DNA from: Peronospora farinosa
Taxonomy: Eukaryota; Oomycota; Peronosporomycetes; Peronosporales; Peronosporaceae
DNA length: 64,000 nucleotides
Direction: 5' to 3'
Assembly: GCA_947646735.1 (NCBI GenBank)
Contig: CANTFK010000899.1
Location: forward strand, 186,001-250,000
Below the pieces are notes generated by a model. It was not told the origin of the DNA. It made no database searches and saw nothing but the letters and a program-made list of their open reading frames with translations. Below, in pieces: positions 5,048 through 59,615 of this stretch; position 1 is the first letter of the stretch; each line of letters opens with the position of its first letter. The translations under genes and the position numbers were made by a program.

Positions 5048-5389
5048 TGTAACGGAGCTAGAATGTACCGTCACTAGCTTCCACGCGCCCTCGAGGAAGA
5101 CTCAAGCCCAAGTATTAGGTATTAAGTAAATATTATCTCTGATTTTATCTTGGTTTTAATTCGTACTAATTACAAAAATTTTAGTCGTAATAAATACGAC
5201 AGTGTTCTCGCCTTTCGGGAACCGCAAAATTTCAGGTTGATTTATCATTGGTCCATATTGGGACTTTAGGCCCCAATAATAAACTAAAATTAAATTGCCA
5301 CGCTGTGCCCGCTATTCGGGCACAGCACCTGCCAACATATGTAATAATTTATTCATGTTAATACTATGTGTGTAATGTAGCCCATTACA
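5048..5389 (-). mobile_element. Old LTR (5' LTR of the minus-strand element)
   Basis: Bounded on the minus strand by TGTAATGGGC at 5389 and TTACA at 5048, followed by the PBS and gag. The start resembles the younger LTRs (TGTAACGGGC). It contains a run of inverted repeats: GTCGTA/TACGAC at 5184-5200, GTTCTCG/CGGGAAC at 5204-5222, TATTGGG/CCCAATA at 5256-5278, and a perfect 10-bp stem GCTGTGCCCG/CGGGCACAGC at 5302-5326. The 342 bp length is shorter than the 596-601 bp of the younger LTRs. Confidence 0.6.
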
Positions 5390-5429
5390 TACTCCTTTAT
5401 TGCGTGCACCGTTACACGTTACATCCTCT

Positions 5430-6600
5430 ACGTGCTCCGGAAGAGTGCTGGGAGTCTGTCTCAATGGACTGCGTCTTTGGGTTTTCCAAAGACGCTCACG
5501 AGAATAATGGTATTCTCTTGTTTGTCGACAGTTCCATTAAGTTGGCACATCTTGTTGCTGTACCTGATTCGATCACAACAGAGGTCTGTGCTCACGTGTT
5601 ACTCGATACAAATTTTTGATTGCACGAGTTACCCTGTGAACTTGTGTTTAATAGGGACCCTCGGTTCACGGCTGTTTATATTATTTATGTGTCGTGTCAC
5701 AATCACTTGGAACACGGATTACGTTGTCTACTTCTGACCATCCCAAAACCGATGGTCGGACTGAACGCGCCAACCACGTTCTCGAAGAAATACTTCGAGG
5801 ATATGTCCACTCGTTTACGAGTTGGAGTGAGTTTTTGCCGATGGTCGAGCCCGCCATTAACAACTCAGTGCGTGCGTCCATGACCCATACCACGCTCTAC
5901 GTGAATGGCCTTCGACATCCACGTGTCTACATCTTAACACAGTTTGACTATAATTCAAGGGGAGAGGGATCGCTGGAGCTAGAATCAATCTGGCTCTTGC
6001 TCATAACGCGCCGACATTATGATCGAGGCGAAAGTAAACGAAATCGCACCATTCGACTTCGGTAAGAAGAAGGTAGTAAGAGCGATAAAGCTCTTACTGA
6101 TGACGATGTTGACGACATCAGCATCGTGCGAGGTATCACCTGATGTTCTTGCTAAGTTAGTCACAAATGTGTCTGCAGTGCATTCACAATGCACTGCAGC
6201 CAAAATCAACAATTCAGCAGAGAATTTCTGCTGACTCAAGAAGCGGTAGTCTGTTTTGTGCAAGACTCCATTAAAGAAGCGATCAACAAGCAGAAATGGA
6301 ACGCAGAAAATGATGGAAGGGCAAGCGCTTGTTCTTTATTTTTAAGGTAACTTATCTTTTAATTTCAACAGTTAATCTATTTTAAACGTGCAGTGAATAG
6401 CGTAGGCAGCAATAAATTTGGTGCCCAAGTACATCGGCCCATTTCGTGTATTGTGCCGCCTAGGCGGCGTATACACGATTGAGCTATCACGCATAAGCGT
6501 ACGCATCCTACGTTTCATGTGGGGCGTCCACGCCCGTACGTTCAGTACGCGGCTTCGTCGAACGACAAAGACGGTTTCCACGCTCAAGAGCCTCAATCAG
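5430..6600 (+). pseudogene. Decayed Ty3/gypsy integrase and C-terminal domain
   Basis: Plus-strand fragments in three frames give an ordered integrase. About 5436-5620 is the start of the catalytic core (SMDCVFGFSKDAHENNG, then VDSSIKLAHLV). About 5640-5665 is the second Asp motif (NRDPRFT). About 5694-5930 carries STSDHPKTDGRTERANHV, including the catalytic Glu region. About 6418-6530 is a C-terminal segment (PKYIGPFRVL, then GGVYTIEL) of the kind found in chromo-type integrases. The N-terminal zinc finger was not seen. Frameshifts at about 5620 and 5690 make it dead. It is oriented opposite to the gag-RT pieces on its left, so at least two insertions are merged here. Confidence 0.8.
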
Positions 6601-8300
6601 TCTCTTGTGGCCACGATCCAGGTTTGCAACCCGGACGTTAAGAGACGAGATAGTCCCACGACGCTGGGTGATCTCCTGACGAGATGCCGCCACATCGTCA
6701 CGCAGAGAGCGACGCATCCGCTCGCTCTTAACTGTGCAACAGTAATCGACACGGGCATTCGCCCGGTCAAGGTGAGCTGCTGCACAGAGTTGCGCAAGCG
6801 AAAAACATGTCTCGGCCGTGGCCCGCGTCTCGGCGAAACCCACAAGTTTTGTAATTAAAACGAGAAAGCTCGGCAAGTAGGTTCGACGGAAGATTAGAAT
6901 CAGGTTTTTTCTCCACCACCGTATCCGCTGGTAGACTATCGTGGCGGAAAGCGAATTCTCGTAGACCGTTTGCTACATCACTGCGAAATGAAAGGACGTC
7001 GAAAGAGTTACCTCTTCCGGTGGCGTGGTTATTTGCCTTAGGTGGATAGCTGAAAACGTCGTGCCCAGTTAATGGTAGACATTTTTGGCCTCGTCGAGCA
7101 GTACGACGAAGCTCATCTGATGACTCGGAAGTTCTATTGAAAAAAAGAGTCCAGCGCACTGTAAAGGGGATGCAAAGTAGAAATCCCTTCACGCATCTCG
7201 GAAGAGATGCGATCCCTCCGATAGGACTCAGTGGAGTTAGTACTTCTTTAGCGCTTTGCCCGAGTTGCTCAAGCTCGGGCAAGGGACGCTCCAAGTAAGG
7301 CAATACAATCCAGCCTCCTTTGACCATACGATGCAAGCTAAAGCGTGCACCGGAAATGGTTCTATTTTAAAACATATCGCTATTAGCGATTAGTTTCTGA
7401 AGCCAGGCATCGCGTAAACGTTTTTAATGTTGGTAATAAACGCGTTACAAGCGTGAAGGAACGCGTCAACGTCACGCTTACGATGTGCGCTGTACCATCG
7501 ATGCATTGGAAACGAATCGATGTAAAAGTCATTCGCAATGTGAAAGTAATTTGCAATGCGAAAGTTATTCGCACTAGCGTCAAGGCCGTAAAGCTTTGAC
7601 GCAATAAACAATATAATTATATGCCGTTCACTGGCATACCAGACCAGAGATTCAGTAGATGCTGGAACAACATCCAAGGTATCCGTTCAGAAGCAAGACG
7701 CAAAACATTGCGGTTTCTAGTCTCCTGCGTGATGTCGATAGAAGTACCGACATCACGTGTAACACCCCCAGCCGACTTACTCGGTTCGGATTGCGAGTCG
7801 TCTGAGTTATCAGACGACCCAACAATTTCTCTACGGATTGAAGTACTCAATGTAACTCTGTATAACAGTAGGGACAAACCTTGGGGCAGCACCCCGGGGC
7901 GAGCCCGAATGTGTAGAACGACACTTCGAGTCGGATGCAACAACATCCGACTCATCAGAGAAGATAACATTTAACTCTGGATCAACATCTTCACGTCACT
8001 TGATCCTGCAACAGATGTTGTAGGCTAATGTTATTAACAGCAAACGATCACTTGGATGCTGCTTGAGGCTGAGAAGCCTTAATTGCGTTTGTACGCAAAC
8101 GTGCAGCCGAGTTCCTTGCGGCATTCGCGGCAACGCGCAGTGCAGGAGGCTCGATGGAATTAAAGAAAAACCAACAAGTGCTCCCTATGAATATTATTAT
8201 AGCTAGTAATATTCGACAAAATTATACTTTCTTATAATAATGTTCTTGCATCTCCTTTAGGTTGGAGATACCCTCTAGTTGATTGGTATAGGCCATGGTA
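6060..8300. repeat. Region packed with perfect inverted repeats
   Basis: A chain of stem-loops downstream of and partly inside the integrase remnant. Perfect or near-perfect stems include AGTAAGAGC/GCTCTTACT (6075-6098), CTGCAGTGCATT/AATGCACTGCAG (6173-6199, 12 bp), TCAGCAGA/TCTGCTGA (6214-6234), CGCATCTC/GAGATGCG (7192-7211), TTGCCCGAG/CTCGGGCAA (7256-7282), CGTGATGTCG/CGACATCACG (7728-7757), GTCGTCTGA/TCAGACGAC (7797-7818), GAGTCGGATG/CATCCGACTC (7928-7953) and GAATATTA/TAATATTC (8189-8214). The LTRs show the same style, so this may include a degraded LTR or 3' region of the plus-strand element. No confident gene was found within 7400-8434. Confidence 0.75.
6508..7336 (-). pseudogene. Possible remnant of an antisense retroelement ORF
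   Basis: Two overlapping minus-strand open stretches (7336-6767 and 6876-6508) lie just 3' of the plus-strand integrase and overlap its C-terminal segment. The second has a helical, Arg/Glu/Leu-rich stretch (about 6790-6560) that could form a coiled coil. The position and convergent orientation match the antisense ORF of the younger elements (9319-10450 and 59670-61106), but I see no clear sequence similarity and the region is dominated by inverted repeats. It could equally be chance open frames. Confidence 0.25.
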
Positions 8301-8434: not shown

Positions 8435-9261
8435 TGTAGACGGGCACTTCAAAGAATTTGCCACATGCTACTAGCACACACCATCGAGAAGCATGAGGAA
8501 ACGGTTTGACCATCTTGCCTCCGCGTGCGGTGGTGGTCGGCGCCGAAGCGCTGTATCAACCGCTGCCGGTCGCCTCAAGCGAACCACACAACGAACCTCA
8601 AAACAAACACCTAACTGCGTCGCGGAAGCTGTTTACAGTCTTCCTTCTTGCATTGAGTGTGATGTAGTAAATTTAAGTCTGACTTATATCGAATAGAGCA
8701 AATTTAATTATAAATCTAACTACTGATTGAATACTATGTAAAAATTGGATTGTAAAAAGTAAGAATGAGGTTTACATGAATGACTTGTTAACGCGTGCCA
8801 GACGCCTTCCGGTCCCCGTTGGGGCCTCGTCAGTGGCTTTGCCAATCAACACGTGAAAACCACCCGATCATCTTCCTATCTAAGCTCTATCACATCCATA
8901 GAAGCATCTAGAAGCCTCGACAACATTTCATATATCCTAGCGTAGGTTAAAGCTCTGGAGTCGATACCAAGTGCAACTTGCACTTTCCAACACGGATACG
9001 CATTTCTTTAGAAGCTTATCCCTACGTGCGAGCTTATATATATATAAGCTAGCTGATGACGTCCGTCTGTGACGTCACCATGACGCCTAGTCCCAACTGG
9101 GCGTCATCTCCGTCGGATGTGAATTAATCAATGGATATCACATTCACGAGAGTGGGTCACATTGATGTGCGTCACCCTAGTGGGAGGTCTAAGGTAACTT
9201 TTATACCTCCCCATTAAGTATATGATACTCAACGGACTCGTGTTACTATTGGCCCGTTACA
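8435..9261 (-). mobile_element. LTR of Ty3/gypsy element (3' LTR of minus-strand copy 1)
   Basis: On the minus strand it starts TGTAACGGGCC at 9261, immediately after a purine tract, and ends CGTCTACA at 8435. It resembles LTR copies at 15648-16243 and 59015-59615 but is about 230 bp longer because of a nested insert at 8751-8992. Inverted repeats lie at 8539-8552, 8568-8585, 8624-8644, 8994-9021, 9031-9050 (a perfect 20-bp palindrome), 9058-9076, 9080-9107, 9117-9143 and 9183-9210. A CRE-like TGACGTCA lies at 9070-9077. No target-site duplication is shared with the outer end at 16244. Confidence 0.85.
8751..8992. mobile_element. Small insert nested in an LTR (solo-LTR-like)
   Basis: Comparison with the LTRs at 15.97 and 59.34 kb shows an extra 242 bp placed within the conserved string ATTGGATACG. 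The insert begins TGTAAAAAGT and ends CCAACA, the TG...CA termini of an LTR, and is flanked by TGGAT on the left and CGGAT on the right, a 5-bp duplication with one mismatch. No coding capacity. A solo LTR is the simplest reading; a short non-autonomous element is an alternative. Confidence 0.55.
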
Positions 9262-9278
9262 CCATCCCCCTCTTTAGG
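9262..9278 (-). other. Polypurine tract of copy 1
   Basis: On the minus strand CCTAAAGAGGGGGATGG directly abuts the LTR start TGTAACGGGC. A polypurine tract next to the upstream edge of an LTR marks the 3' LTR, so this fixes copy 1 as a minus-strand element. The same feature is seen at 59616-59632. Confidence 0.75.
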
Positions 9279-9318
9279 ACAATTTTTTCCATCTTTGTAA
9301 GAAATCGAAAGCAAGAAG

Positions 9319-10469: not shown

Positions 10470-13400
10470 TTCGCGGTAGGGTAGCAGTACTTCATAGCAC
10501 TTTGTCCCCAACACTAAAGTGTTCATAGTTTTTGCGACCATGCTGGTTCGCATATTGTTTATGCTTGTCCTGTGCGCCTGCCATCGCGTAACGGACTTTA
10601 CATGTGATGGCTAATCACTCATCCACGAAGCGCTGAGCTTCGATCACGCTTTTAGCATCCAGCTCGCCTATGACACCCCCAAGAGGTCGGTCATGGGTCG
10701 ACGCTGTTGACAAAACTATAGTGTCATCGTCAATAAGCACAGTCGTTTCTTGCCGTGCCTCCTCTGTGACACCTATAGGTGACGTGACCACTGCTAAACT
10801 AGTAGTGTCACTAGGGCAAACTTGACCCTCTTTGGCATTCGCACCGAACGAAGTGAGGGGCCCTCCCCCACTAAGACTCGGGCTGCGTACAAACGAGACT
10901 GGCGTTCGAGGATGACGCAGTCCGTTAATGTAAAACGGTGTTTCACCCGTACTGGCGTGAACACTGTTATTAATAGCAAACTCCACGAATGGCAATTGCT
11001 TGCTCCATTCTTTGGGAGTCGCTATTGTACGCAACACATCCGCCACGACTCGATTGGCTCGTTCTGTTTGGCCATCGGTATGGGGATGATCAGCGGTAGA
11101 CATGTGGAGCTTGCTACCCAGCAGCTCAAACACATGTCGCCAAAAACCCGACGTAAAACGCGGATCCCGATCCGATACTATGGACTCGGGCATCCCGTGT
11201 AGTCGATACACGTGATCCAGGAACAAGAGGGCAGCCTCTTTTCCTGCGATCTTGGTGCTACATGGTGCCAAATGCACTATCTTGCTCAGTCTGTCTACAA
11301 CGACAAAGAGCCTCGTCCTGTCTTTATGGTCAGGCGGTAAGCCAAACATGAAGTCCAAACTGACCGACTATCAACAATCCGTTGGAATCGGCAATGGCTT
11401 TAATGGCGCACTGCAATGGCCATCTATAGTCGCTCTTGTGAAGAGTGCGCTGACACTCTTCACAAGAGCGAACATAGTTGGTCATTCGACATTATAGGTG
11501 GGGCCACCAAAATTCCTCTGACACTCGTAAGAATGTCTTTTCCAGCCCAGATGCCCATTAGATGGCGCATCATGGCACTCGTGAAGTATCATCAGCTTGA
11601 GATCAGTGTCATTAGGGACATAGATTCTCAAGAGATCACAGGGTGACAGTTGATGCCATAACAGGCCATCACTGTAAATAAAGCGAACAATTTTCGCTTT
11701 GAGGTGCGACGGAAGGGTAACCTTTCGTCCACTAAAATGATCCAATAGCAGGCGACATTGTTCGCCGTGACTCTAGCACTCCTTATATCGGAGGCCATTG
11801 AGCTCTTCACATGGTAGGCCTTCATGACTGCCAATGTTGACGACCCAACTTTCTCTTTCGCACGAGACACACTTTTCTGGTGTCTTGCCTCGAAGTCTGG
11901 TCTGCGCGATAAAGCGTCAGCCAAGACATTCGACTTACCCGGCTTATATTCAACTTTGAAATTAAATTCAGAGAAGAATGTTAGCCATCTCGCCATCCTA
12001 GGCGAGAGGTGCGGTGAATTTATAGCGGTCCGCAGTGATGCGTGATCCGTATAAACCACAAAAGGTTCGGTGCCCAAGAGGTGCACCCGAAACTTTACCA
12101 GGGCATACTTAATTGAAAGTAGCTCCTTGTTATGCACAGGGTAATTCAGCTCTGCAGCTTTTAAAAGCCGAGACTGATACGATATGACACGGTCAACGCC
12201 GTTGTCATCCTTCTTCATGAGCGCGCTGCCGATTGCAAAATTGCTTGCATCGCAGACGACGATAAAGGGCTTATCCACGTCTGGCAATGCCAAGACCGGT
12301 GCCTCTACAAGAGATTGCTTCACTGTTGTGAACGCATCTACTTTCTCCTTTGACCAAGTCCATTCTGTATCCTTTTTCAAAAGATCAGACAATGGCTTAG
12401 TCTGCTCCGCATAATTCTTGCTGTACGTATGCAAGTAATTAGCGAGACCAAGGAATTGGCGCAGATCCTTCACATGACGTGGGACTGTACATTCCTCTAC
12501 AGCCTTGACCTTTTCTGGGTCTGCTCGTACACCATGTGTACCTACGATGCAGCCCAATACAGGTATCTCGGGGACCCTTATAACGCACTTTTGCAAGTTT
12601 ACGTATAATTTGGCGTCACCCAGAGTCTGCAACATAGCGTCTAAATGACGCTTGTGCGACTCTATTGCGCTCAGACCGTCTTCCGCCCTACTATGCACGA
12701 ACACGTCGTCAAAGTAATGGGGCGCGTAGGCACGTGCTGACGCATCACGTGAGCCACCACTCAGTTGATTGTTGCCGAAGCATTTTTCAACCATTGTGGC
12801 ATCACAAGCCACTCCCACAGCATACCGTTTGGGTTACTTACTGCCGTCTTGGCTAAAGTAGTATCTCTCATGAGAGCTTGATAGTAGCCATCCTTCAGAT
12901 CCAACGCGGAAAAGATAGTTGACTTTCCCATGGAGTTCAACAAGGCATCGCTCCGCGGGATCGGTGTTTGCGCCAGAATGGTGGCCGTGTTCAGCTTATT
13001 ATAAGCATGAACCACGCGCCATCCACCTGTTGTTTTACGCACATAGAAGATCGGACTGCAGTGAGGCGACTTTCTCTCACGTACATGTCCCGCCTTGGCT
13101 CTCTTGTCGAAGAACTCATCGATGTAATCGACTTGTTCCTTCGGCAACGGCCATTGCCTGGTCACACAATACTTGGTGCCAGGCTCCAGGTCAATTTCGT
13201 GCCTGATGCCCCTATCGGCCGGCAGGCGGCTCGGCACTTCTGCTGGAAACACATCACGGTGTTTCCACAGAACATCATCGAACGGGCTGTCCTTCAAGGC
13301 TTCCCAGCCTTGAGCAGCGAACCGTTTCTTCTTGTCGGTCTCCAAGACGCTCTCATCCATTGTGGATGAAGAGCAACAGTCCACCACGTTCTCTTCTGGA

Positions 13401-13972
13401 ACTGGTGCAACTATCTCGTGGATCTTTCCTTCCTTTAGTTCGGACAGGAAAAGATCCCACGTCATCTTCGAGAGATTTAATATCTCCTCGGCAGATGCCA
13501 AGACAAGTTGGAGCACCTCAACAGAGGATGCCTCCGGCATTTTGTCTTTGACGGCCTCGAACAACTCGCTCGTAGGTCCGTCCTCTTGGACCGAGACTGA
13601 TCCAAGGGTCACTCGTTTCGACGTGTCCTTGATCGTCTTAATACGTCGGGTGCTCGTTCTTCGAGTCACCACAACCTTTGACCTGGAAGAAGGTGTCGTT
13701 GCTATCTCAGCTAACACACTCCTTCCAACCGCACCAGGCTCTTGGCTCTGTGCCGGTTCTTGTGGCGCTTGACTTCCTGTCAGCCCACCATCAACTGACA
13801 CAGGCTCTCGGCTCTGTGCAGGACTATTGGACGCATGACTACCTGTCATCGCCCCATTCACTACACCAGTCTTTTCGACCTGGGTAGGAATATGTGTCAC
13901 CTGGCTTTCCGCCAGTGCACTTCCAACTACACCACTCTTTCGAGCTGAGTAATTACTGGTGCCGATTGACAT
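10470..13972 (-). pseudogene. Ty3/gypsy pol: RT, RNase H and integrase, frameshifted
   Basis: Order on the minus strand: a variable linker (13972-13350); RT N-terminal part (FDKRAKAGHVRERKSPHCSP, ALDLKDGYYQ); a frameshift near 12780-12810; the RT active site YFDDVFVH at about 12.71 kb; RNase H (VCDASNFAIGSAL, NKELLSIKYAL, VYTDHASLRTA) around 12.27-12.03 kb; a damaged integrase zinc-finger region (about 11.75-11.5 kb); and the integrase core (11358-10615) with DFMFGLPPDHKDRTRLFVV, VSDRDPRFTSGFW and DGQTERANRV. The C-terminal domain seen in copy 2 is deleted. At least two frameshifts make it non-autonomous. The same region of copy 2 is closely similar. Confidence 0.9.
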
Positions 13973-14385
13973 AACGTCATCGGACCCTCGACTGTGTTGG
14001 ACAAAGCATCAGCCACATAAGCCTCTCGCAAGAGCACATCCTTTCCGGTGTCTTGCGTAGAGCTAGAGACTGTGCGTGTACGCCAGTCTATCCATGGTTG
14101 GTGTTTAGTCAACCAAGGCATGCCTAGGATGGGGTCATATGGACTCTCCATTCCTAGCATTGTGAACTTCTTTTTACAAGAAAAGTCAATGAGACTGAAT
14201 GCGAGTTCAACTTGAACTCCCTCCGATCTTACAGACGCGACGTTCTCTAAACGAACGATCGCCTCTTTTCGCTTTCCATCCTGGCAAAGCGACTCATAAC
14301 TCGCCGGTCTCTTTTTCAGAGCCGCGAGTTTCACAAAGTTTTGTGATGCACCCGAATCCATGAGAAGGGTCATAGCCTCGTACAC
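13927..14385 (-). pseudogene. Ty3/gypsy aspartic protease segment
   Basis: An open minus-strand segment of about 150 residues with the catalytic triplet region LLMDSGASQNFV near its start and a flap-like segment DPILGMPWLTKHQPWIDW further on. It lies between gag (ending 14512) and the RT linker and slightly overlaps the latter in another frame. The same DPILGMPWL motif occurs in the old element at about 1.6 kb. The separation from gag by a stop and the frame change to pol could reflect programmed frameshifting or decay. Confidence 0.8.
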
Positions 14386-14511
14386 GAGCGCTATAGCCCA
14401 AAAGGGTTGAGTTCCGACCTTTCGGAACCTCAGGGACTATGCTAACCCTTTGTTCGATCACTCTGAACTTAGGGGTAGCTTCAGAGTCCGCGACAGTAGG
14501 GCATCCCGCCC

Positions 14512-15603
14512 CTACTGCGCTCCCGCATTTCCCGACTTGTCAGGGGTCGAATCTGAATCCGTGCGACGTGCACGGTTCTTCAAACCACCCTTCGGGTTGG
14601 GAGACTTCTTGCTGGCTGCCTTAGCACCAGCAGCAAGTTTGGCATAGCAGCGAGCCATCATATGGCCTCGCTTGCCGCACTTGTAGCAGATAATATCTGC
14701 ATTGCCTAACTCCATAGGATTGGCATCAGACTTCTCGGACGACGGCCTGTAATAGACTGGTGCCAAGGAGCTGTTGTAGGATTGATCCTCAACTAAGGCA
14801 ATGTCAATTGCCTCTTCCATCGTCGCTGGCACCTTTTTGAAAAGGGCCTGACGCGATGGGCCGTGCCTAAGTCCATTCATGAACGTGGCCACCTTGATAC
14901 GTTCTGGTATCGGTTCCCCATTGATGGACGCCGACAGAGAACGCATCTCCTGCACAAACTCTTGCAGAGAGCGTTTCGCCTGTCGTGCTCCAAAGAAGCG
15001 CGCCATAAGCAACACTTCGTTGTTAGGCGGCTGATACATGGCGCGAATCTTTGCCTTAAAGATCATCCATGATAGAAACGCATCAGCATTTGCCATCAGC
15101 ACAGAGTATGCCCACTCTGACGCTTTGCCACGCAAGTTGGACATGGCATACGACACCATTCTGGTGTCGTCCTTGATGAGCTGCGCCACTCCACATTGCT
15201 CCACGGCTAATAGCCAGTGAACAATCGTGTGAGGGCTACTTCCATCGAACTTCGGAGGGTCCATCCGAATGGGCCTCGGTTGAGCAGGCCGGGCAGCGAG
15301 CGTCTCAACAGTTCTGTTGAGCGCCTCATTACGTGCTTGCTCAAGCCTAAGCTCATCCTGAGTCTCATTGATAGATCAGCGGTGGCTTGGCTGTTTACCT
15401 CAGACGCGTTCTACGCTGTCCGAGCACAAACGCCTCAAATTGCTCCAACTGAGCAACATGTTGCTCAGGAGGACAATGCAAGAGATTGACCAGGGCTTGT
15501 TCACCAAGTCCCTGGCCATATGCTCTGCCAACTCCCTATGATGTTGAGAGAGGTGAAGGAAGTCACTCCGGTCCATATTAAGGACCATCTTAACCACAAG
15601 CAC
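14512..15603 (-). pseudogene. Ty3/gypsy gag
   Basis: The main open part (15264-14512, about 250 codons) has a capsid-type core (MSNLRGKASEWAYSVLM, FGARQAKRSLQEFVQEMRSL, ERIKVATFMNGL) and a zinc knuckle CYKCGKRGHMMARC (CX2CX4HX4C). It ends in a basic Lys/Ser-rich tail. Upstream, 15603-15400 reads as a Leu/His-rich N-terminal portion that is out of frame with the core, so the gene is broken near 15.3-15.4 kb. The PBS and LTR lie just beyond at 15631-16243. Confidence 0.85.
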
Positions 15604-15630: not shown

Positions 15631-15645
15631 CTACTGGTGCTACCA
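15631..15645 (-). other. Primer-binding site of copy 1
   Basis: TGGTAGCACCAGTAG on the minus strand lies two bases after the LTR end CTACA. The first eight bases complement the 3' end UGCUACCA expected of an initiator Met tRNA. Together with the purine tract at 9262-9278 it shows that gag-pol and the LTR pair share minus-strand orientation. Confidence 0.7.
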
Positions 15646-15647
15646 AG

Positions 15648-16243
15648 TGTAGACAGGCACTTCTACAAGTTGTTTCGTACTACTTAGCACACCTTCAGCA
15701 CAAGCGAGGAAGCGGTTAGACCGTCTTACCTTCGCGTGCAAGGGTGGTTAGGAGGCTGGTCGACTGCTTAAGCAGTCGTACCACCAGTTGCCACTCGCTT
15801 AAGCGAGAGTGCAACGAACTTCTAAACAAGAAGTCACCGACGTCACGCAGAAGTCTTTCAACTTCTCGTGCGTGGTGCGTTTGTTTAAGTAAATTCAAGA
15901 CTGAGCTATATTTAATGAATTATAATGACATATATAAACTTAACAACTGATTGGCTAATTATATATAAAGATTGGATACGCGACTCTTTAAAAGCGTATC
16001 CTGACGCATGAGCTTAAATCTAGATTTAAGCTGCGAATGACGTCCTTCTGAGACGTCCTGATGCCTAGCTTCAACCAGCGTCATCCCTTCCAATGTGAAT
16101 CCATCAATGGATATCACATTCACGAGGGTGGATCACATTTGTGTATCGCACTCAATTGACAGGTCAAAAGTAATTATGGATACTTTTAGACCTTACAATA
16201 AAGTATTACTTAATGTTTACGTGTAACTAGATGCCCTGTTACA
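15648..16243 (-). mobile_element. LTR (5' LTR of copy 1), hairpin-chain type
   Basis: Starts TGTAACAGGGC at 16243 and ends CTGTCTACA at 15648 on the minus strand (596 bp). Inverted repeats in order: CGACTGCTTAAGCAGTCG (15761-15778), CTCGC/GCGAG (15794-15807), ACTTCT/AGAAGT (15818-15834), CACG-c-AGAAGT/ACTTCTCGTG (15844-15870), GGATACGC/GCGTATCC (15974-16001), a perfect 22-bp palindrome (16011-16032), GACGTC/GACGTC (16039-16057), AATGTGAATCCAT/ATGGAT-a-TCACATT (16092-16120) and AGGTCAAAAGTA/TACTTTT-a-GACCT (16161-16193). Its sequence differs more from the 8435 LTR than that one does from the 59015 LTR. Confidence 0.85.
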
Positions 16244-59014: not shown

Positions 59015-59615
59015 TGTGGACGGGCGCTTCGTAAAAAGCTGCAGCGTACTACGCAAGCACACACCTTCGAGCAGCGTGAGGAAGCGGTTATACCGTCTTA
59101 CCTCCGCGTGCGGTGGTGGGGGTGTTGTTTGGCGCTAAAGCGCAGTACCAACTGCTACCGGTCGCTTTAAGCGACCCGCGCAACGAACTTCTATGACAAG
59201 AGCTCCACTAACGACACGCAGAAGCTTATTTTGCTTCTCGTGCGCAGTGAGTGTGATGTAGCAACTTCATGACTGACTTCTATTTAATCGGAATAATCAA
59301 ATAAAAATCTAACTACTGATTGGTTTAAATGTAAAGATCGGATACGCGTTTCTTTAGAGGCGTATCCCTACGTGCGAGCTTAAATAAATTTAAGTTTGCC
59401 GATGACGTCCGTCTGAAGCGTTACCATGACGCCTAGTCCCACCTGGGCGTCATCCTCGTTGAATGTGAATCCATCCATGGATATCACATTTACGAGGGTG
59501 GGTCACATTCATGTGCCACACCCAAGTGGCAGGCCTAAGGTACCTCGTACCCATTTAGGCCTGCTCGTTAAGTATTGGATACTTAACGAACCGTGTAACT
59601 TTTAGCCCGTTACGC
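59015..59615 (-). mobile_element. LTR (3' LTR of minus-strand copy 2), hairpin-chain type
   Basis: On the minus strand it runs from 59615 (CGTAACGGGC, with a T-to-C change at the terminal base) to 59015 (CGTCCACA). Stems in order: GCGCT/AGCGC (59132-59143), GGTCGC/GCGACC (59160-59176), CACG-c-AGAAGC/GCTTCTCGTG (59215-59242), GGATACGC/GCGTATCC (59340-59367), AGCTTAAAT/ATTTAAGTT (59377-59396), ATGACGCC/GGCGTCAT (59426-59453), AATGTGAATCCAT/ATGGAT-a-TCACATT (59462-59490), GCAGGCCTAA/TTAGGCCTGC (59529-59564) and TCGTTAAGTAT/ATACTTAACGA (59565-59589, 11 bp). The partner LTR lies beyond the right edge. Confidence 0.85.

Follow-up and report, generated by a model that had tools for sequence, protein, structure and literature searches.

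LTRs are usually regarded as fast-changing sequences that, apart from a small number of hairpins in the leader, have little shape. HIV-1 carries the TAR, poly(A) and DIS hairpins. With Ty1, kissing loops have been described in the leader RNA (PMC5454406), and a survey of LTRs mentions stem-loops near the polypurine tract and in R regions of greater length (PMC3601003). The several hairpins of the Ty1 and HIV-1 leader or LTR RNAs are tied to dimer formation or packaging. As to the origin of hairpins, Monttinen and Loytynoja (2022) reported that template switching creates stems, inverts loops and repairs arms (PMC8794818); that study concerned RNA genes and DNA replication, whereas with a retrotransposon reverse transcription offers an extra chance for such switches.

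Three repeats, named A, B and C, in a 64-kb stretch of the Peronospora farinosa genome (the window, to which coordinates refer unless a contig is named) are LTRs that belong to a single large family of the Ty3/Gypsy type. With Ty3/Gypsy elements (Metaviridae) they share the gag-protease-reverse transcriptase-RNase H-integrase order, TGT...ACA ends, and flanks resembling a primer site and a polypurine tract; they differ in that short hairpins, some pairs of which covary, follow one another almost without interruption along each LTR. Several hairpins are likewise present in the Ty1 and HIV-1 RNAs, but those described here cover the whole LTR, and any role for them is putative. No description of a hairpin-chain LTR was found in the literature searched, which covered few subscription journals. 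Rfam returned no match in the window at the gathering score and none at E <= 0.05 in three loci, and the motif of hairpin H6 (below) had 0 matches in each of the viral and prokaryote collections.

The LTR Family and Its Copies

The coding pieces of a Ty3/Gypsy element were identified with Pfam on the minus strand at 10615-15264, where gag (15264-14512), protease (RVP_2), reverse transcriptase (RVT_1), RNase H and the integrase core (rve) follow one another in several frames. Scores for RNase H and gag were above the cut-off and those for RVT_1 and rve just below it, and the reading frames are broken; the integrase follows RNase H, the gene order by which Ty3/Gypsy elements are recognized. LTR B (15648-16243, minus strand) holds the 5' LTR position and is adjoined by a primer-binding-site-like TGGTAGCACCAG at 15634-15645 (minus strand). 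LTR A (8435-9261, minus strand), with TGT...ACA ends, is in the 3' LTR position beside a polypurine-tract-like run at 9262-9279 that is purine-rich on the minus strand; these ends and flanking sites were read from the letters. LTR C (59015-59614, minus strand) is the 3' LTR of an element that extends past the end of the window. Given that the coding strand is the minus strand, the minus strand is also the sense strand of the LTRs, and the letters given are complementary to the sense RNA.

These boundaries agree with those of the initial annotation for A and B, while the end of C, formerly set at 59615, is at 59614. The extent of A stands as well, except that the LTR is interrupted by a 242-bp insertion of another repeat (8751-8992), which by itself matches several other places at 84-86% and is perhaps a small mobile repeat. 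Because A and B, although they flank one Gypsy interior, are only 67-71% identical and have no common target-site duplication (their outer 5 bp, tagta and acctt, differ), they are not an original pair, and the locus is composite.

With B, C and A as probes, searches of the 46.85-Mb genome yielded 1225, 1289 and 1283 first-look candidates, of which 40, 40 and 39, respectively, were scored. Three further probes (1270, 1229 and 1711 first-look candidates) revealed an additional subfamily, D, whose members match their own probe across 536 of 601 bases. The D copies were taken as these 536 bases plus 10, which places their right end (half of H12, together with H13 and H14) outside the extracted part; the D LTR continues past this point, since the following bases are alike in different D copies. 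Two D-type places on one contig (C272:353697 and C272:361233), on the same strand and approximately 7.5 kb apart, show no difference at any aligned base in the 538 that were extracted. In all, 168 loci gave 171 candidate stretches, and after removal of 12 partial ones 159 were kept, 149 of them distinct, with pairwise identities of 65% to 100% (median 75%). By a simple text match that pools short flanks, solo LTRs and mutated ones, the core of the primer site was found beside 30 of 148 copies, the tract beside 15, and neither beside 104. On contig C238, five C-type LTRs (L010-L014; 252530-267522) recur every 2875-2878 bases, except for one interval of twice that length; in this series an LTR and an internal unit are repeated in tandem.

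Hairpin Organization of the LTRs

Folding energies were far below those of dinucleotide-shuffled controls, a comparison that the initial annotation had proposed as a check and that did not refute it, with z values from -4.3 to -8.8: -7.82 (+ strand) and -8.67 (- strand) for B against 100 shuffles, -8.76 and -8.61 on the two strands of C against 20, and -4.28 for A against 20 (+ strand only). Without recourse to alignment, the mean number of hairpin base pairs per LTR among 87 copies (non-redundant at 93%) was 55.3, compared to 15.8 in shuffles. Strong hairpins (net stem of at least 8) numbered 8 in the three LTRs (3.95/kb) where 0.7 were expected; the corresponding values were 17 versus 10.1 for the interval separating B from C (42.8 kb), and 13 versus 1.1 in the stretch at 4.7-8.4 kb. 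When short stems were scanned in 425 segments of 300 nt, segments of the LTRs scored z values of 0.4-4.2 and the maximum outside was 5.65, several non-LTR segments of the 64 kb thus outscoring them for short hairpins.

Up to 14 short hairpins, arranged in an order common to the three LTRs, make up each chain. The intervals were defined on copy C, where H1 (59076-59111) is followed by H2 (59127-59152), at the matching position of which LTR B has GACTGC/GCAGTC, H3 (59155-59185) and H4 (59213-59244), these being stems 1, 2 and 4 of the initial annotation. Next are the AT-rich H5 (59275-59309), adjoined by a CCAAT-like box visible in the letters; H6 (59336-59368), with GGATACGC/GCGTATCC; H7 (59371-59400), the AGCTTAAAT palindrome; H8 (59400-59426), the GACGTC region; and H9 (59425-59454), with ATGACGCC/GGCGTCAT. 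H10 (59457-59494), H11 (59494-59523), H12 (59524-59567; the penultimate stem of the initial annotation), H13 (59564-59592), whose loop is found in both orientations among copies, and the terminal H14 (59592-59614) complete the chain. Eleven intervals are clear and three (H1, H5 and H14) weak: relative to single-base shuffles, mean interval energies were clearly lower for H2-H4 and H6-H13 and slightly lower for the other three.

The stems first quoted for the three LTRs are present on direct reading and in the same order. The chain itself is therefore upheld, with 14 intervals in place of about ten stem-loops. The quoted stems are not all intact in every copy, however: stem 2 is imperfect in A, GGATACGC/GCGTATCC has one mismatch in A, and GACGTC/GACGTC, which had been called nearly fixed, is broken in C.

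Covariation between the Arms

RNAalifold, applied to a MAFFT alignment of 87 copies, gave almost no consensus fold. The hairpins were thereafter aligned one by one to templates, themselves picked from folds of the same copies. For the tree test, the 149 distinct copies were aligned with no pairing bonus, substitutions were placed by parsimony, and a null was obtained by redealing the substitutions of each branch among stem columns in 200 simulations. Hairpin rows that fell below 0.8 of the template length were excluded, as was every D row in H12-H14 (61 of 2037, with 1976 kept), and branches ancestral to at least 5 of the 149 copies were classed as deep.

On the deep branches, 10 double Watson-Crick changes were observed against a null of 1.0 +- 1.0, and 49 pair-restoring changes against 13.9 +- 3.2; none of the 200 simulations reached either value. 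Pair-breaking changes on the same branches were depleted, with 27 to G.T, 26 to A.C and 28 to other mismatches, compared to null values of 46.1, 40.3 and 43.5. Shallow branches were near the null (6 double changes versus 2.3, reached in 10 of 200 simulations). On terminal branches, restorations and G.T breaks were near the null and the remaining breaks slightly above it, with a clear excess of double changes (31 versus 16.4; 0 of 200). With a second tree, built without the stem columns, deep branches gave 7 double changes versus 1.0 and 46 restorations versus 12.7 (both 0 of 200), and shallow branches 9 versus 2.3 and 49 versus 35.7, respectively. Retention of all rows gave the same picture, and a version with the pairing bonus gave 15 double changes versus 2.2 on all internal branches and 43 versus 16.2 on terminal ones. 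When each partner was slid by 1-3 columns, deep double changes fell to 0-1. The ten deep double changes of the main tree lie on five branches, and the branch of subfamilies B and D by itself accounts for five; hence they do not represent ten independent episodes.

The commonest states in six subfamilies, which cover 88 or 115 of the 149 copies depending on the cut-off, comprise at least two Watson-Crick types in 11 of 157 pairs, distributed over 9 or 10 of the 14 hairpins by cut-off. One Watson-Crick type together with another state was found in 42 or 39 pairs, and 104 or 107 are invariant among the subfamilies; use of the pairing bonus in the alignment raised the first class to 13 of 157. An alignment-free test was made by exchanging 3' halves between copies of different clusters, the results being means without significance values. 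The resulting chimeras folded worse on average for H12 (1.6 kcal/mol), H3 (1.1), H2, H8, H4 and H6, and on one strand only for H5 and H11; in many of the hairpins with a positive mean, no more than about half of the chimeras folded worse. The test was flat or negative for H1, H7, H9, H10, H13 and H14, and nearly so for H11, as would be expected wherever most differences represent decay after insertion.

Covariation of the arms is thus real but sparse, being carried by a minority of pairs. The earlier proposal that the arms change jointly above the phylogenetic background is borne out by tree-based simulation (R-scape was not the program used); its further contention that so many stems had changed in this way needs to be tempered, with 11 of 157 pairs involved and approximately half of the hairpins flat on exchange of arms.

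Probable Selection on a Folded LTR

Comparison of deep with terminal branches indicates that stems were upheld in the lineages that spread and were lost after insertion. Substitution rates are consistent with this: for deep relative to terminal change, the odds ratio of stem columns was 0.59 compared to spacers (p 0.001) and 0.43 compared to loops (p 1e-5). These values were computed over MAFFT columns with few gaps, which practically excludes H12-H14 (columns which D rows lack). Since correction of one arm by the other would not by itself reduce the rate of substitution in stems, a pure arm-correction process is disfavored, and of the three possibilities first raised (selection on a folded RNA, cruciform DNA, or a copying mechanism) selection gains from this constraint. 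The unpaired flanks of the hairpins were as constrained as the stems, and therefore the constraint may be partly on sequence. The 50 deep restorations counted in this analysis comprise 17 reversions, 13 new pairs and 20 with no earlier Watson-Crick state.

Taken together, selection for a folded LTR in the spreading lineages, with decay of the stems after insertion, is on balance the probable explanation. In lineages leaving many copies, stem-breaking changes would have been removed and stem-restoring changes kept; following insertion, the stems of each copy decay. In a full-length LTR-retrotransposon transcript, U3, R and U5 are all present, so that every hairpin would be contained in the full-length RNA and the element RNA would be the relevant form. 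The string of hairpins could then serve packaging, dimer formation, strand transfer, stability or translation. The joint changes suggest that the folded shape, and not the exact letters, mattered to the element. An account based purely on active lineages does not predict the excess of double changes on terminal branches, nor that on the shallow branches of the second tree.

With nearly the whole LTR paired in a high-copy family, dead copies serve as neutral controls in the same genome, and selection on structure can be separated from structure-making mutation, a question already raised for RNA genes by the work on template switching (PMC8794818).

Inverted Template Switching as a Likely Source of Hairpins

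A process that needs no function could leave a similar pattern. If, in reverse transcription or replication, the growing strand changes template inside an imperfect palindrome, it would make hairpins, mend their arms and sometimes invert their loops, and much-copied lineages would stay paired while dead copies would not. This mechanism is the one described for RNA genes (PMC8794818), and a case was found inside the element at 11424-11477, where a 22-bp hairpin has a new left arm that is the reverse complement of its right arm, as an inverted template switch would yield. Among the 40 copies scored of 437 candidates, the window copy and one other (95%) align through the hairpin without a gap; the other 38, judged from alignment spans, have 13 or 14 bases fewer or align only rightward of it, and a second copy in the window, the letters of which were read, is without the left arm. 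That the hairpin is common to two places suggests that it has spread by transposition or duplication. The three-base loop of H13 also occurs both ways, as CAT in 13 and ATG in 3 clusters, and as TCG in 26 and CGA in 2. Hairpins are enriched approximately 12-fold in a separate repeat at 4.7-8.4 kb, wobble pairs are not preferred, and terminal branches have somewhat more double changes than the null, all of which are points in favor of copying.

Set against these observations, the stems are constrained, which is unexpected under pure correction, and double changes affect single pairs rather than blocks; block-wise replacement of arms as the rule was rejected, two pairs being changed in 3 of the listed double-change events and one in the rest. 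Most of the inverted-loop pairs span 3-7 bases, a length at which chance could account for them. A comparison of each LTR with its nearest relative for inverted copies of 12 bases detected 5 weak cases, three of them AT runs, along with 11 direct matches and 0 reversed or complemented ones, in a scan insensitive enough to miss the hairpin at 11424. As the complete explanation, copying by itself is a possible, if rather unlikely, candidate. The initial suggestion of a copying mechanism is supported insofar as inverted copying does occur, the case in point being the single hairpin at 11424-11477 formed de novo. Under the favored reading of selection in spreading lineages, the hairpins would probably arise through inverted template switching, of which the window holds this one fresh case; such switching is a likely source of the LTR hairpins and maybe contributes to their upkeep, including the double changes on terminal branches. 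A broader view is considered unlikely: that in this genome the retrotransposons keep forming and repairing hairpins through inverted template switches in the course of reverse transcription, and that in more than one family the LTR has been overrun by hairpins, a chain that the copying machinery produces and the element then puts to use.

RNA, DNA and Common Descent

Selection on RNA should favor G.U pairs, and hence the lack of a wobble signature among deep + strand changes (G.T and A.C breaks at 27 and 26, or 22 and 22 in another run) counts against action on a single RNA strand. In the sense RNA, A.C on the + strand becomes G.U; when stem columns were left out of the tree, A.C breaks showed the weakest depletion (0.77 versus 0.55 and 0.64), and on the main tree they were level with the other classes (0.65 versus 0.59 and 0.64). 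Near-equal depletion of all mismatch types therefore permits no strand to be assigned.

This equality on the two strands, the equally good folding of both strands of B and C, and self-complementary motifs in some arms, such as GACGTC, are also consistent with a function at the level of DNA, by which the inverted repeats would be kept as cruciform-prone palindromes or paired binding sites. Such a function is nonetheless distinctly improbable: a site-specific binding protein would not tolerate joint change of the arms, the hairpins span the whole LTR, and terminal copies lose pairs at an approximately neutral rate despite remaining in the chromosome. It is very improbable that the pattern is mostly one of common descent, with hairpins present by chance in an ancestral LTR and covariation produced by errors of alignment and parsimony, for even though 104 of 157 pairs are invariant among subfamilies, exchange of arms has no effect in about half of the hairpins, RNAalifold found no consensus fold and the templates came from the copies themselves, the excess persists without the pairing bonus, the stem columns or the short rows, and sliding the partners all but removes the deep double changes.

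Other Features of the Window

In both elements, a short frame starting MPPK was read from the letters on the + strand, antisense to the element and immediately internal to its 3' LTR, from 9319 and from 59670. The segment 4700-8434 is another repeat, with a hairpin density 12 times that of shuffled sequence and 952 first-look places in the genome for 5200-6700; it is putatively Gypsy-like, given an integrase-like frame legible on the + strand near 5.5-6.0 kb. At 2570-2929 lies an AT-rich tandem repeat, each unit of which is itself an inverted repeat. Comparison of a related repeat at 6143-7493 with a second locus (L027; 69%) revealed a hairpin at 6168 with its inner pairs altered on both sides, from GCATT-CAC-AATGC to GCAAT-CAC-ATTGC; other hairpins there have decayed.
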